Of a stretch of 34,500 nt of DNA, positions 21,411 to 29,449 are shown piece after piece. Where the stretch lies: positions 1-34,500 of IMG/VR virus record IMGVR_UViG_3300036878_000019; one strand, written 5' to 3'. Each line of letters starts with the position of its first letter. Positions within the stretch are counted from its first letter, which is position 1. The translations under genes were made by a program, and so were the position numbers. This stretch comes from a virus. The notes under the pieces are model-generated. The model saw only the letters and a list, made by a program, of their open reading frames with translations, ran no database searches and was not told the origin of the DNA.

Positions 21411-22447
21411 CCGACACCACCAATCAACGCCAACTGATCTCCGACACCTCGATTAGATTTACGTGAATTGCAAAGCCAATGCGAACACTGCACATTCACG
21501 TACAAATGGCCGCCCCCGAGCGACATAGGCACGATGTGATCCAACGACGCGCACATCTGATTCGGCCAACGATGGTGCGGATTCACACGCTTACGGCAGA
21601 TGCCACACACCCAGCCGTCACGCGCAAACACCTTCAGCGCACTGATCGGCTCATACACAACACCGAACCGTCGGGCACGCTTCCGATGATGCTCATGCGG
21701 CCGGCGCGGAGCGGAAACCGCTCGACGCCTCCAAACCTGATTCTCGGGGCACGCTCCGCAATGCATACGCTCATGTCTCGGCGACCGGGCGACCTCAAAC
21801 GCATCACCGCAGTGCTTACAGCAACGAATTGACCGTGGCCGATCCCGCCATGGTATCGATGTAGGCCGCTTCCGGATTGGATTGGCTCGACGACAATCCT
21901 GGCAACGAAGCCGACCTGGCGGCAACGAGCTCGGCGACGTTGCACACGGCTTCTTACAATCAGCGCACGGCGTGTACGGACCGAATTCCTTGCGTCGTTG
22001 ACGGAGTGCCCCAGCTTTGACTCGGGCCGTGTCCGACATCCGGGAACGACGGCACGCATGGCAGACGATCACAAGTGCCGATGCCGATGTGACCTGGCGT
22101 AGGGCACCACAGACTGAGCACGGTTGCTGATCGGGTCGCCCTGGGGTAGCCCTGGTCAGGTTTTTTTCGGAGAGGCCCCCTTTCTTTTTTTGCCTACCAT
22201 GCCTGGAGTCGCCCGGGGGGGTGTCCAGGACTTTTGGCCCCCCCGGTCGCTGGGGGTGGTGTCCTTCGGGTGGGGTGGTGACCACGGCGGCCCGGGGGTT
22301 GCGTGGGGTGGTGTCCTTCGCGGGGATGGTGACCGGGGCCGCGCGCGCTGTGTGTGTGGGTGGTGGCCTGTGGGGGTTGCCATGGTGACCGGTGTGGGGA
22401 CTGGTGTGGGTGTCGGGTGTGTCGTCGGGGACTGGTGTGGGTGTCAT
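21407..22447 (-). CDS. Zinc-finger HNH endonuclease
   Basis: The C-terminal 75 residues are an HNH nuclease: GWVCGICRKRV, DHIVPMSLGGGH with the first His of the motif, VNVQC with the Asn, then HWLCNSRK. Three similar CxxC-x16/17-CxxC fingers precede it (PCSVC...CHAC, PCADC...CQDC, RCCKHC...CGAC). HNH proteins beside terminase help packaging by nicking or cleaving cos DNA. The start is uncertain: ATG 22447 (ATGA overlap with the upstream HNH gene) gives a long Pro/His/Thr-rich N-terminus through a homopolymer-rich stretch. ATG 22039 would lose the first finger. The finger region argues for a start upstream of 22118, possibly by -1 frameshifting (see findings). Confidence 0.6.
   Translation of the reverse strand: MTPTPVPDDTPDTHTSPHTGHHGNPHRPPPTHTARAAPVTIPAKDTTPRNPRAAVVTTPPEGHHPQRPGGPKVLDTPPGDSRHGRQKKKGGLSEKNLTRATPGRPDQQPCSVCGALRQVTSASALVIVCHACRRSRMSDTARVKAGALRQRRKEFGPYTPCADCKKPCATSPSSLPPGRLRCQDCRRANPIRKRPTSIPWRDRPRSIRCCKHCGDAFEVARSPRHERMHCGACPENQVWRRRAVSAPRRPHEHHRKRARRFGVVYEPISALKVFARDGWVCGICRKRVNPHHRWPNQMCASLDHIVPMSLGGGHLYVNVQCSHWLCNSRKSNRGVGDQLALIGGVG
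22120..22443. other. Homopolymer-rich arm boundary, candidate cos/packaging region
   Basis: The stretch holds T7 (22161-22167), C5, T7 (22185-22191), G7 (22215-22221), C7 (22238-22244) and G5 runs within 100 bases, flanked by G/T-rich DNA on the + strand. The frames through it encode only Pro/His/Thr-rich sequence that does not look like a folded protein. It sits between the end of the early arm and the packaging genes, where cos lies in cohesive-end actinophages. The core cleavage sequence cannot be identified by eye. Confidence 0.4.
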
Positions 22448-25168: not shown

Positions 25169-25437
25169 CCGGGTCTGAATTCGCATCGGGCGTAGTGGAC
25201 GACGCGGCTGAAGTGGCGGCCTTTGCTGAGCTGGTTGTTGGTGACGCAGCGGTCGCCTGGTCCGGAGTTGCATGTCGGGCATGTGGTTCGGAGTGCGCGT
25301 TTGACGATCAGGTTGTTCGGGTTGGCCAGTTTCGAGACGAAGCCGCCGCCGGCTATGCGGTGACTTTTAAGGCTTCGGCTTTGGCGGCGAAGAACTCGCG
25401 GATAGCGGCTTGGGATTCCTGTTTGCCGTTGCAGCAC
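25162..25437 (-). CDS. Small zinc-knuckle protein, start uncertain
   Basis: The C-terminal 50 residues carry a clear zinc motif: TTCPTCNSGPGDRC followed by GRHFSRVVHYARC (Cys53, Cys56, Cys64, His75/His81 if counted from a GTG at 25437). This C-x2-C-x3-PG-x-x-C pattern with a downstream R-H-x-x-R is common in short actinophage proteins. The start is a problem: the only canonical in-frame start is the GTG at 25437, which overlaps the upstream gene by 85 bases. A non-canonical start near 25352 is also possible. The gene ends overlapping the resolvase. Confidence 0.6.
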   Translation of the reverse strand: MLQRQTGIPSRYPRVLRRQSRSLKSHRIAGGGFVSKLANPNNLIVKRALRTTCPTCNSGPGDRCVTNNQLSKGRHFSRVVHYARCEFRPGW

Positions 25438-25841
25438 TGCAGTCCGATCTCGGCCTTGACGAGGCGGTCGGTGGGGTTTTCGACCGGCCCTGTGATGAAT
25501 CCATCGGCGACGCTGTGGATTTCGTCGGCGGCTTTAGCGTCGAAGGTTTCCTGTCGGTGTTCGCGTTCCGGCTCGGCTTCACGGTCGAGCCGATCGCGCT
25601 TGATGCGGCGGGCATGACTGAGCAGGTCACCGATACCGATAGCGCGGTCACGGGGCTCGTCGTAAAACGCCTGCAGTCCGTCGAGCAGCTCGCCGCGCTG
25701 TAGCCGGTGCTGGTGCACTTTCTCGGCCCATGCGGCGATGCGTGCCTTGTCGGCGCGCGGCGCTCGGTCGTCGAGGATGGCAGCGAGTTTGAGCACTTCA
25801 GTGATGGCGAACAGGTCGGCTTCGGTTGCGTCGATGTTCAC
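25353..25841 (-). CDS. 162-residue hypothetical protein after replication initiator
   Basis: It begins at a GTG at 25841 in a GTGA overlap with the initiator stop. Helical pattern throughout: LFAITEVLKLAAILDD, KARIAAWAEKVHQHRLQRGELLDGLQAFYDE, then a highly charged segment with EREHRQETFDAKAADE and a C-terminal AIREFFAAKAEAL. The first 85 residues (D-R-x-P-R-x-D-x-x-R-x-x-A-W) match a domain often found next to actinophage replication genes. It might help load the helicase, but that is inference. Confidence 0.7.
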   Translation of the reverse strand: MNIDATEADLFAITEVLKLAAILDDRAPRADKARIAAWAEKVHQHRLQRGELLDGLQAFYDEPRDRAIGIGDLLSHARRIKRDRLDREAEPEREHRQETFDAKAADEIHSVADGFITGPVENPTDRLVKAEIGLQCCNGKQESQAAIREFFAAKAEALKVTA

Positions 25842-26704
25842 AGGGTGGTGACCTCCTGCAGCAGTTCGGCGAGGGCCTGGTCGTAGTCGAGCGCTTTGGC
25901 GGTGGGTTTGCCGTTGGTGTTGGCGCGGTTGTTCGCTTTGTGGACGAAGTTCGGGATCTGGCTTGGCGACCAGGAGTCGCTCGCTGTCCACGCTTTGAGT
26001 CCGGCCGCGATGCTCGGGGGCGAAATGTTGGATTTAAGGCATTTATCGATTTGGGTGCCGATGCCGGCGAGCAGCCCGGTTTCGATGGGGGTTGGCAGGG
26101 CTCTGCTGAACGCTTCGGCGATCCGGTAGGCGGTTGGGGATCGGGCCGTGAGGTTGGCTTCGCGGATGCGCTCAAGGGCTTTTTCCCGCCCGTCTGGTTC
26201 GCGCGCGTTGCTTTGGTGAGGGGGGGGATCTACGTAACCAGAGTTCTCTTGTTGGGTTGGGTTGGGTTGGGTATACCCGGGACTTCGCCGTGACTCCTGG
26301 TGTGACTCACGCTGTCCGTCACGTGGGGTGTCACGCTGTGACTCCTCCTGTGACTCCTCCTGTGACGAACTGCGTGACTTCTGCTTGCGTTTGCGCGCTA
26401 ATTCGCGGTCTGCCTCGATCTTTTCGCGACTGTCCTGTCGTCCGGGGCCTACGAAATCGTGGAACTGGTAGCCGAGTTCGCCGTCGCGTTCCTGGCCGTC
26501 GATCCATAGCCCGACTGCGACCAGTTTGCGTGCTTTTCTGGTTCCGTTCGGCTGCTTTTTGACCCACCATTCGGGTACGAATCCGTCGGTTAGGTAGCGC
26601 ATGCACCAGGATCCGGCGCGGGTCCACATGCCGATTGCATCGTCGCCGGCGCGTTCGGCTTTGGGGTGTGAGTCGAGCCCATCGTCAACACGGAAGTGGG
26701 GCAT
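25838..26704 (-). CDS. Replication initiator-like protein
   Basis: 288 residues. The N-terminus (MPHFRVDDGLDSHPKAERAGDDAIGMW, WCMRYLTDGFVPEWWVKKQ, RKARKLVAVGLW) is the winged-helix start characteristic of actinophage replication initiation proteins. A disordered Gln/Glu/Ser/Arg linker lies at about residues 95-160. The C-terminal region (TAYRIAEAFSRALPTPI, QIDKCLKSNISPPSIAAGLKAW) resembles the helicase-loader-binding half. As in lambda O, the linker-coding DNA carries repeated short words that could be the origin. The ATG at 26704 overlaps the ParB-like stop (TGATG). Confidence 0.82.
   Translation of the reverse strand: MPHFRVDDGLDSHPKAERAGDDAIGMWTRAGSWCMRYLTDGFVPEWWVKKQPNGTRKARKLVAVGLWIDGQERDGELGYQFHDFVGPGRQDSREKIEADRELARKRKQKSRSSSQEESQEESQRDTPRDGQRESHQESRRSPGYTQPNPTQQENSGYVDPPPHQSNAREPDGREKALERIREANLTARSPTAYRIAEAFSRALPTPIETGLLAGIGTQIDKCLKSNISPPSIAAGLKAWTASDSWSPSQIPNFVHKANNRANTNGKPTAKALDYDQALAELLQEVTTL
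26251..26272 (+). repeat. Four-tract G-repeat inside the initiator gene
   Basis: The + strand has GTTGGG four times in a row (G3 tracts with TT loops), followed directly by the palindromes GTATAC and CCCGGG. Four G3 tracts with two-base loops are a classical quadruplex-forming arrangement. On the coding strand it encodes the short Thr/Gln/Pro/Asn stretch TQPNPTQQ. It borders the iteron-like array. Confidence 0.7.
26290..26378. repeat. Iteron-like array, candidate replication origin
   Basis: Eight copies of GTGAC or its complement lie in 89 bases: direct at 26290, 26302, 26338, 26350, 26362 and 26374, inverted (GTCAC) at 26318 and 26330. Within each cluster the spacing is exactly 12. The most regular copies extend to TGTGACTCCTCC. 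It lies within the linker-coding part of the initiator gene, beside the G-repeat. This resembles lambda ori inside O. The 12-base period also encodes the SQEE-type protein repeat, so selection on protein alone is the alternative. Confidence 0.55.
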
Positions 26705-27573
26705 CAGTGGTTGACCTCGACGCGGTTGCCGCGCGAGCTGTTGCAGCTTCGGTCCGCCTTGGCTTTCGGCAGGGAGCCGGTCCAGCGCGGCGGGAACACC
26801 AGGCGCGGACCGGGCTGCTTGTTGTACAGGTTGAGCATCACAATCGCGGCGAGCTTGGCCATGGAGCCCGGCGTAGTTTCACGAAGGGCCTTGGCCTGGT
26901 AGCCGATTCGGCGAGGCGGTATCTGCGCCATCGCGTGAATGATCCTGTCGGCGTCCAGGCGCTCGTTGAAGGCGGCGATGACGTTAGCGAGCCCCGCGAC
27001 GATGGGTGCGTCGTAGGCCCCGCGTTCGGTACCCCACGCGGTGATGAGAAGGTGCAGTGTCGCGTCGAGCAGGTCGAAACCTTGGGCGCTGTTCGCGATT
27101 TTCTCTAGTGTGCTGATGCAGGCGATGACGCCGTCGGTGCCGGATTGTTCGCTGATGCGGAGTCCGTGTTTGGTGACGGTTTTCTCGATTGATGAGACGA
27201 GCTGGTCGCCGGCGGTGCGGCGTGCTCGCCAGTGGTCCCAGGTGGTGATCTGTTTGCGTTGCCGGTTCAGTTTGTCGAACAGTGCGGCTTCGTCGGCGAG
27301 TGACAGCCCTTCGTGGACGTTGGCGACCAGGATGGGCGGTTCGGTAAGGTATTTGGCTGCGGCCCAGCGGTGTTGGCCGTCCAGCACGGCATAACGTGGT
27401 GTGTGGTTTTCGCCGCGGTCTGATACTTCGAGGATGCCGGCTAGGCGTCGGTCCCAGGTGTCGCCGATGCGGCGCACCCGGGGAACGTCGAGGACACGTT
27501 GGTAGCTTAGGTCGGCGAAGATTTCGTCGATGTTGAGCGCCATGACGTAGACGTTGGTTTCGGCAGTGGTCAC
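26704..27573 (-). CDS. ParB-like nuclease-domain protein
   Basis: 289 residues. A ParB-type N-terminal domain is visible: LSYQRVLDVPRVRRIGDTWD, LAGILEVSDRG, then YAVLDGQHRWAAAKYL with DGQHR at 65-69, and LFDKLNRQRKQITTWDHW. Proteins of this DUF6551-like type are common in actinophage early regions; the fold binds nucleotides and sometimes cuts DNA. The C-terminal half is helical. A GTG at 27573 was taken as the start; an ATG at 27543 would remove the first ten residues. It lies directly upstream of the initiator gene, suggesting a replication role. Confidence 0.82.
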   Translation of the reverse strand: MTTAETNVYVMALNIDEIFADLSYQRVLDVPRVRRIGDTWDRRLAGILEVSDRGENHTPRYAVLDGQHRWAAAKYLTEPPILVANVHEGLSLADEAALFDKLNRQRKQITTWDHWRARRTAGDQLVSSIEKTVTKHGLRISEQSGTDGVIACISTLEKIANSAQGFDLLDATLHLLITAWGTERGAYDAPIVAGLANVIAAFNERLDADRIIHAMAQIPPRRIGYQAKALRETTPGSMAKLAAIVMLNLYNKQPGPRLVFPPRWTGSLPKAKADRSCNSSRGNRVEVNH

Positions 27574-28045: not shown

Positions 28046-28390
28046 TCAAGCGTTCACCGCCAGCGGCTCGAGCGTGAAGGTGGCGCCGAGCGCCTCCTCC
28101 TGCTGTTTCAGCCACGCCAGGATGACCGTGTCGGGCGCTCCCGGGGTTGGCGGCTTCACATCCGCCAGCTCAGGATGCTGCGCCAGGACGGCCGGGCGCG
28201 CGGTGTCGATGTACGCCTGGGTGTCGTCCGGGTGCGGCACCTGGTGGGCCATGAATCCGAGGACGCGGATGCATTCCTTGTAGGTGCAGAAGATCTGGGT
28301 GGCCGATCCACAAGCGATGGTGAGGACAGCGCCGATCGGGAATTCGTTGTACGCCAACGGCTCTGCCGGTTGCGTCTGCCGGGCGATCAC
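28046..28390 (-). CDS. 114-residue hypothetical protein
   Basis: Starts at a GTG at 28390 (GTGA overlap). It contains AVLTIACGSATQIFCTYKECIRVLGFMAHQVPHPDD, then IDTARPAVLAQHPELADVKPP and VILAWLKQQEEALGATF. Proteins with this layout, short strands with scattered Cys followed by a P-x-V-L-x-x-H-P-E-L segment, recur in actinophage early regions. The function is unknown. Confidence 0.7.
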   Translation of the reverse strand: MIARQTQPAEPLAYNEFPIGAVLTIACGSATQIFCTYKECIRVLGFMAHQVPHPDDTQAYIDTARPAVLAQHPELADVKPPTPGAPDTVILAWLKQQEEALGATFTLEPLAVNA

Positions 28391-28740
28391 TCGTTGCCGT
28401 CCTCGTCGTCGGCGGGGTTGCCGTCGCCGTCGAACAGCTCGCCCTGGTCGCTGTCGGTGACCGGTTCAGTTTCGCCGGGCTTCCACACCGAGATAATCGA
28501 CATCTTTCTCGAATAACGCATCTCACCGTCGGCGCGGCGCGCGCGCCCGTCGCAGACACATTCCGCCTTAACCAGATACGTCACGACGTCGCCAATCTTG
28601 GGCGGATTTGGGAGCGCCTTCGGCGTCGCACCGAACCCGACATACGCGTCGATCGACAATCCTGATTCAGTGTCGATGTCCAGCTTGTCGAGATCATTCG
28701 ACGACGGGACGTCCTGCGGCTTTTCAGAAACAATCCCCAT
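28387..28740 (-). CDS. Conserved early protein near RecT
   Basis: 117 residues from an ATG at 28740. Residues 25-85 (DTESGLSIDAYVGFGATPKALPNPPKIGDVVTYLVKAECV, RYSRKMSIISVWKPGE) are a beta-rich domain; the last 25 residues are acidic (GELFDGDGNPADDEDGNE). This conserved type is seen near RecT genes in actinophages and may be a single-strand-binding or recombination accessory protein, since it has an OB-like strand pattern with an acidic tail. That role is inference. It starts one base after the repeat protein stop. Confidence 0.7.
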   Translation of the reverse strand: MGIVSEKPQDVPSSNDLDKLDIDTESGLSIDAYVGFGATPKALPNPPKIGDVVTYLVKAECVCDGRARRADGEMRYSRKMSIISVWKPGETEPVTDSDQGELFDGDGNPADDEDGNE

Positions 28741-28741
28741 A

Positions 28742-29449
28742 TCAGACTCCGATCCGGGTGAGTGCGTGGTTGATTGCTGCGTGGTCGATGTCGGTGTTGC
28801 CGTCGAGACCTTGGATTTGGCGCCAGCATTCGATTGCGTTGCGGGTGAATTGGATGAAGGCCGCACTCTCGGCCGCGCTCCTGGCCGCGCTCCTGGCCGC
28901 ACTCCTGGCCGCACTCTCGGCCGCGCTCCTGGCCGCGCTCCTGGCCGCGCTCCTGGCCGCACTCCTGGCCGCACTCTCGGCCGCACTCTCGGCCGCACTC
29001 CAGGCCGCACTCCAGGCCGCACTCCAGGCGAAAGGAATCACCCCGGCTGCCGCGTCACGGTGCAGCTGCGCGATGCGCCGAACCGCGGCTACACCATCAC
29101 CTTTCGCGAACTGCACGACGCCCCAATCGGGATTGTCGAGCACCTCAGCGATCCACAACGCGTGCACAGCGTCCGAAACCCCGGCAGTCCCGACAGTTTG
29201 CCAACCCAAATCCAGGACAAGCACACTGTTTTCCGGTGACAGCAAACCGTTCAGACCGGCTAGTTCGTCGTTGCACATCTGCACCAGCGCAGCCAACGGG
29301 CGAGCCGAGCACTCGGGATAGTCGGTGATCTGCTTGTCGCCGTTGATGTAGGAAATCACGTTCGTCGCACACCCTTTGCCCGATCCGGGTTGGTGCGAGC
29401 CTTTAGCCAACCGCAACGGGTGGGTGATGCGGTCAAGGTCGATGGCCAT
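28742..29449 (-). CDS. SAA-repeat protein
   Basis: 235 residues. The first 140 residues form a globular domain (RLAKGSHQPGSGKGCATNVISY, SVLVLDLGWQTVG, ALWIAEVLDNPDWG). Residues 142-197 are fourteen tetrapeptides X-S-A-A, with X being Trp three times, then Glu or Arg. A short C-terminal segment (FTRNAIECWRQIQGLDG) follows. Such repeats form a long helix with a charged face and occur in several bacterial and phage proteins without known activity. The ATG at 29449 follows the RecT stop by one base and has a GGAGAC ribosome binding site. Confidence 0.8.
   Translation of the reverse strand: MAIDLDRITHPLRLAKGSHQPGSGKGCATNVISYINGDKQITDYPECSARPLAALVQMCNDELAGLNGLLSPENSVLVLDLGWQTVGTAGVSDAVHALWIAEVLDNPDWGVVQFAKGDGVAAVRRIAQLHRDAAAGVIPFAWSAAWSAAWSAAESAAESAARSAARSAARSAARSAAESAARSAARSAARSAAESAAFIQFTRNAIECWRQIQGLDGNTDIDHAAINHALTRIGV
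28859..29026. repeat. Fourteen 12-bp tandem repeats encoding X-S-A-A
   Basis: A 168-base array of 12-base units, such as GGCCGCGCTCCT, GGCCGCACTCCT, GGCCGCACTCTC and GGCCGCACTCCA on the + strand. The variable bases fall mainly in the X codon. Neighbouring units are often identical, as expected from slippage or unequal exchange. Copy change keeps the frame and varies helix length in the SAA protein. Confidence 0.9.

Follow-up and report, generated by a model that had tools for sequence, protein, structure and literature searches.

Positions 26224-26378 of the 34,500-nucleotide window (the whole stretch of viral DNA that was analysed) very probably form the replication origin of a mycobacterial phage, located within the gene that encodes the phage's initiator protein. 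Sequence comparison establishes the order of its parts along the gene: an array of core words, placed in both orientations on an approximately 11.5-bp lattice, is followed by a C-rich tract with a 5-bp period and then by an AT-richer patch.

Results

The minus-strand gene at 25838-26704 encodes a protein of 288 amino acids, which we assigned as the replication initiator from its match to phrog_2447 (replication initiation protein; E 1.3e-42 in a PHROG search) and from annotated relatives; those in Mycobacterium abscessus prophages are annotated as RepA-like replication initiators. The protein is laid out as a winged helix-turn-helix (wHTH) N-domain, a linker and a helical C-domain. In an AlphaFold2 model built with 59 sequences, the N-domain (pLDDT 95.4) is predicted to form a helix-turn-helix and wing followed by a long basic helix. 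The DNA-binding part (residues 1-90) is encoded at 26435-26704 and the helix past the wing (residues 93-114) at 26363-26428, both on the minus strand, and the DNA for the helix overlaps the first iterons. The C-domain was modeled with a pLDDT of 66.

The best matches of the N-domain model among solved structures were ordinary winged helices. Structures 4pql, 4pt7, 5kbj and 4pta, which we take to be staphylococcal RepA_N plasmid Rep initiators, matched together with an ORC-DNA complex at Z 6.0-6.9, scores that unrelated wHTH proteins equalled, and the modeled domain appears to resemble RepA_N plasmid initiators weakly. A Pfam scan of the initiator returned no RepA_N domain, no O-family match was obtained in Pfam or PHROGs, a profile search of solved structures matched no chain, and a Foldseek search gave nothing below E 0.1. 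Distant blastn of the C-domain DNA among phages found no match.

The next gene (25353-25841, minus strand, 162 amino acids) has as its sole PHROG match phrog_3599, a family without assigned function; at the same position, several relatives have a gene annotated as a helicase loader, a lambda P-like replication organizer or "loader and inhibitor of phage". In Microbacterium phage Pickles13, this slot holds an annotated DnaC-like loader, with a DnaB-like helicase after it. Near the initiator, the window also has RecE-like and RecT-like genes, and the gene immediately upstream of it, at 26704-27573, is ParB-like/DUF6551. Rfam and tRNA scans of the whole window gave zero matches. Elsewhere in the window, the cumulative GC skew turns near 22 kb (22000-22400); T-runs are found near this turn, as is an imperfect tandem repeat of 52 bp (22253-22369).

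The earlier note on this DNA had described eight GTGAC/GTCAC words in the initiator gene, and every position and orientation proved correct. Two plus-strand copies of the putative iteron (26290-26294 and 26302-26306) are followed by two inverted copies (26318-26322 and 26330-26334) and then by four further plus-strand copies (26338-26342, 26350-26354, 26362-26366 and 26374-26378). As the note had also stated, the words are spaced by 12 bp inside each group, and the array (26290-26378) sits in the linker-coding portion of the gene. Between groups the spacing is 16 and 8 bp. GTGAC occurs 115 times in the whole window against about 102 expected; the word is therefore not globally enriched, and it is the local cluster that is special. 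When synonymous codons were permuted across the gene in 20,000 trials, keeping the protein and the codon set, the mean was 1.5 copies per 130 bp and the maximum 5, so that none reached the eight observed. With codons drawn by the usage of the other genes in the window, 0/20,000 trials reached even 6 copies. Permuting only the linker codons (residues 106-142) among themselves gave at least 8 copies in 69/20,000 trials, because the unusual codons are those of the linker itself.

A scan of the window with the spacing rule derived below gave strong matches only at the initiator array and at a second 12-bp array at 28859-29029. The latter consists of fourteen copies of a 12-bp repeat in gene 28742-29449 (phrog_3416), where it encodes in-frame SAAR/SAAE/SAAW tetrapeptides; an overlapping open reading frame (28387-29022) reads it in another frame as GVRP. 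This SAAx peptide repeat, in frame and in one orientation, serves as an internal contrast to the initiator array.

Spacing was then compared across 331 initiator genes of the same N-domain family, 182 of which share less than 80% DNA identity with each other. The core word differs by initiator subfamily and includes GTGAC, GGGAC, CGAAC, GTTAC, GCAAA and others. Distances were measured in the 84 genes with at least 4 copies of one of three words (GTGAC, n = 32; GGGAC, n = 21; CGAAC, n = 31). Neighbours in the same orientation lie 11-12 or 22-24 bp apart, inverted neighbours of the GTCAC-to-GTGAC type 7-8, 18-20 or 29-30 bp, and those of the opposite type 5, 15-16 or 26-28 bp. For these three words, most peak spacings exceed the synonymous null about 5- to 50-fold, and every reading phase is used. 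Both orientations are present in 43 of the 44 linkers that have a significant word; inverted copies, which the note had thought hard to explain by protein repeats alone, are the rule in relatives. What the note had missed, having seen the array and the G-repeat, was the exchange of words on the same lattice in distant relatives.

At least five on-lattice pairs of any 5-mer were found in 107/182 initiator linkers, compared with 8.1 expected from synonymous permutation, in a test that is not fully independent since the spacing rule was derived from three of the tested word classes. In flanking control segments of the same loci, this level was reached in 2/347; the identical spacing rule was applied to the genes and to all controls. 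Counts over the 182 are not independent events because the representatives are still mutually related. The lattice occurs without a CCC tract in 38/182 relatives, and by these tests both lattice and tract are absent in 31/182. One relative (L038) has an expanded linker-coding region (gene nt 320-620) with GTGAC in two groups about 150 bp apart, the second of which is followed by the C-rich tract. Exact host DnaA boxes (TTRTCCACA) are present in the linker-coding regions of seven relatives (L175, L174, L183, L239, L302, L198 and L259), and none is present in the N-domain coding regions. With only 7/182 carrying them, DnaA boxes were rejected as a general part of the origin.

The four-tract G-repeat that the note had reported beside the array is present at 26254-26271 as GGGTTGGGTTGGGTTGGG on the plus strand, that is, (GGGTT)3GGG, a pattern unique within the window. 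On the coding strand it is C-rich, and it is a family-wide element. The note had not recognized it as a separate element with a 5-bp period that always lies downstream of the words and is followed by an AT-richer patch. A tandem tract of 5-bp period was detected in 107/182 linkers (5.4 expected) and one of 6-bp period in 18/182 (4.4 expected). At the 5-bp period, at least three CCC runs occur in 113/182 (27.7 expected) and four in 95/182 (11.3 expected). The dinucleotide separating the C runs varies (GA, GT, AT, AA, TT and others), and the encoded peptides vary along with it. The tract lay 5' of the words in 0 of the 69 genes having both, and the median gap was 9 bp. The window and 95/182 relatives carry four GGG runs with short loops on one strand; since other relatives have two-C versions of the tract (CCACT, CCATT), a G-quadruplex was dropped as its sole reading.

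On the gene strand, the candidate unwinding site, an AT-richer patch at 26224-26253, directly follows the 3' end of the tract. Its AT content is a modest 53%, compared with 39% for the gene, whose strongest AT-rich 30-bp stretch lies outside the patch. As a family average, the AT fraction per 10 bp over the 30 bp past the tract is 0.56/0.47/0.42, compared with 0.42/0.37/0.35 after permutation, the value for the first bases being partly biased by the definition of the tract end; farther on it returns to 0.29-0.35. The overlapping palindromes GTATAC (26271-26276) and CCCGGG (26276-26281) are present at 26271-26281, as the note had said, but the closest relatives alone share them, and they are not a general feature. 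In initiators of the cluster N type (L338, L339, L340, L027, L028 and L031), a shared period-8 (GGAACAGG)n tract occupies the slot of the C-rich tract. Because this tract is common to different wHTH domains while the repeat words upstream of it differ, GGAACAGG was dropped as a candidate for the cluster N iterons.

Mapped onto the N-domain tree, word class required 41 changes, compared with 49-64 in 200 shuffles. Where a C-domain of the window type (58-68% identity) is joined to another N-domain, the upstream words are GCGCAAA, GCGGAA or CCGAGGA; where the same N-domain is joined to an unrelated Cys-rich tail, GTGAC is kept. In these exchanges of domains, the word goes with the DNA-binding domain. 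In two prophage relatives with N-domains 77-79% identical (L022 and L033), GGGAC words replace GTGAC. A search for a wHTH residue determining word choice gave no clean determinant.

The words are also kept when the peptide is not. GTGAC is read as CGT GAC (Arg-Asp, RD) in the window and in L001 and as GTG AC. (Val-Thr, VT) in phi1_186001 (L024), Aubs (L025), M. abscessus prophages (L057) and L076. The note had named a protein repeat that persists after loss of GTGAC as the case against iterons; the opposite was found, with GTGAC kept while peptide and frame change. Since relatives keep the words in other reading frames, it is the DNA rather than the protein that is conserved.

An array of this kind might instead be an autoregulatory operator, a set of sites within the gene through which the bound initiator would do no more than curb its own transcription. 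Such an operator would show the same binding-site anatomy, and origin-bound initiators often self-regulate as well. However, the sites lie about 300-450 nt into the gene, away from any promoter position, and an operator would have no need for an ordered tract and AT-richer patch behind its sites; we consider this explanation improbable. A centromere-like array for a ParB-like protein is more improbable still. The neighbouring gene at 26704-27573, which adjoins the initiator, does match the ParB-like phrog_1033 (E 3.8e-14), and the parS sites of RedRock are eight direct 8-bp repeats (PMC7157519). Yet no ParB annotation adjoins the initiator in any of the annotated relatives examined, which keep the array, and throughout the relatives the array stays inside the initiator gene, with a word that follows the initiator N-domain tree. 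The least probable explanation, a protein-level tetrapeptide repeat with codon bias in which the DNA words are incidental, is compatible with the 12-bp spacing of the window taken alone (12 bp being four codons) and with the low complexity of the linker, but comparison of the sequences already contradicts it: 11-bp spacings and the use of all reading phases in relatives exclude it as the source of the spacing, the same word occurs in different frames and both orientations, the 5-bp tract encodes TQPNP, TRPDP, SHPIP or SRPVP in relatives, and the true in-frame repeat at 28859-29029 has one orientation.

Discussion

For a replication origin within the initiator gene, the arrangement suggests how initiation might proceed. 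The wHTH N-domain would occupy core words on a single face of the DNA, one for each helical turn, and the bound N-domains would assemble an array of initiators. This array may open the strands by straining or capturing the tract and the AT-richer patch beside it, and the C-domain, together with the next gene's product, could then recruit the replicative helicase. The linker peptide would be a by-product of this DNA, tolerant of changes in its sequence. For the tract, candidate roles are strand-specific capture of single-stranded DNA, formation of a G-quadruplex, or a spacer. We put forward only tentatively, as a possibility that we rate below even, that the tract is a new origin-opening element of high-GC phages, a strand-specific single-stranded DNA-capture or quadruplex-forming repeat intermediate between array and AT-richer patch. 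The DnaA-trio repeats of chromosomes occupy a comparable position (PMC10797057), whereas the C-rich tract has another period and composition.

The layout rule of word, lattice, tract and AT-richer patch finds a candidate origin by sequence alone, and it applies to many phages, including those of Mycobacterium, Gordonia, Microbacterium, Arthrobacter and others, so that unmapped origins of related actinobacterial phages become predictable. The family also offers a natural set of DNA-binding domains, each paired with its target word, and it poses the question of how a GC-rich origin opens beside a C-rich tract. Small replicons and phage-engineering tools for actinobacteria could be derived from it.

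An origin inside the initiator gene is of a known kind, with examples in lambda O, SPP1 gene 38 and pSK41 rep; what is new here is the 11-12-bp lattice, the turnover of words and the 5-bp tract. Among the papers that our literature search covered, none was found that describes such a lattice or tract, maps an iteron origin in phages with this family of initiators, or reports replication, binding or footprint data for the family. Lambdoid origins have four to six iterons, and these are direct, whereas the cores in the window are 5 bp long, point in both directions at intervals of one helical turn, and are accompanied by the C-rich tract. The parallel with lambda that the earlier note had drawn holds at the level of general kind: in O of lambda and Stx phages the origin lies mid-gene, with iterons and then an AT-rich region, and the next gene encodes the helicase loader (PMC7466680).

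In SPP1, oriL has direct repeats and an AT-rich element inside gene 38, with gp39 as loader and gp40 as helicase; SPP1 also has a second origin, oriR, and the portion of the account cited here describes no C-rich tract of 5-bp period (PMC6316719). No sequence relation was found between gp38 and the initiator of the window. For the RepA proteins of Cluster A mycobacteriophages (Miko, Jeeves), the origin is thought, by analogy with lambda O, to lie within or next to repA, and no repeated motifs were found in the regions that those authors examined (PMC7157519). These proteins differ from the window initiator in length (320-350 amino acids) and in the position of the helix-turn-helix (residues 95-132 in Miko), and their replicons serve plasmid-like maintenance of prophages.

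The closest described arrangement is that of pSK41 rep. According to the cited part of one account, the N-terminal wHTH domain binds several Rep boxes located centrally in rep, where the DNA encodes only the linker (PMC5703833). RepA_N plasmids such as pSK41 and pSK1 share with the window initiator gene a set of central sites in linker-coding DNA. Unlike these plasmids, initiators of the window type belong to phages of high-GC actinobacteria; there is no sequence match to any solved chain, and the Z scores fall where wHTH proteins without any relation also score. The same part of the RepA_N account makes no mention of an 11-12-bp lattice in both orientations or of a 5-bp C-rich tract (PMC5703833). 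It does describe, for pPR9, a block of about 500 bp comprising N-domain and origin that is exchanged as a unit (PMC5703833), an exchange that mirrors the modularity of domain and word seen in the phage initiators.
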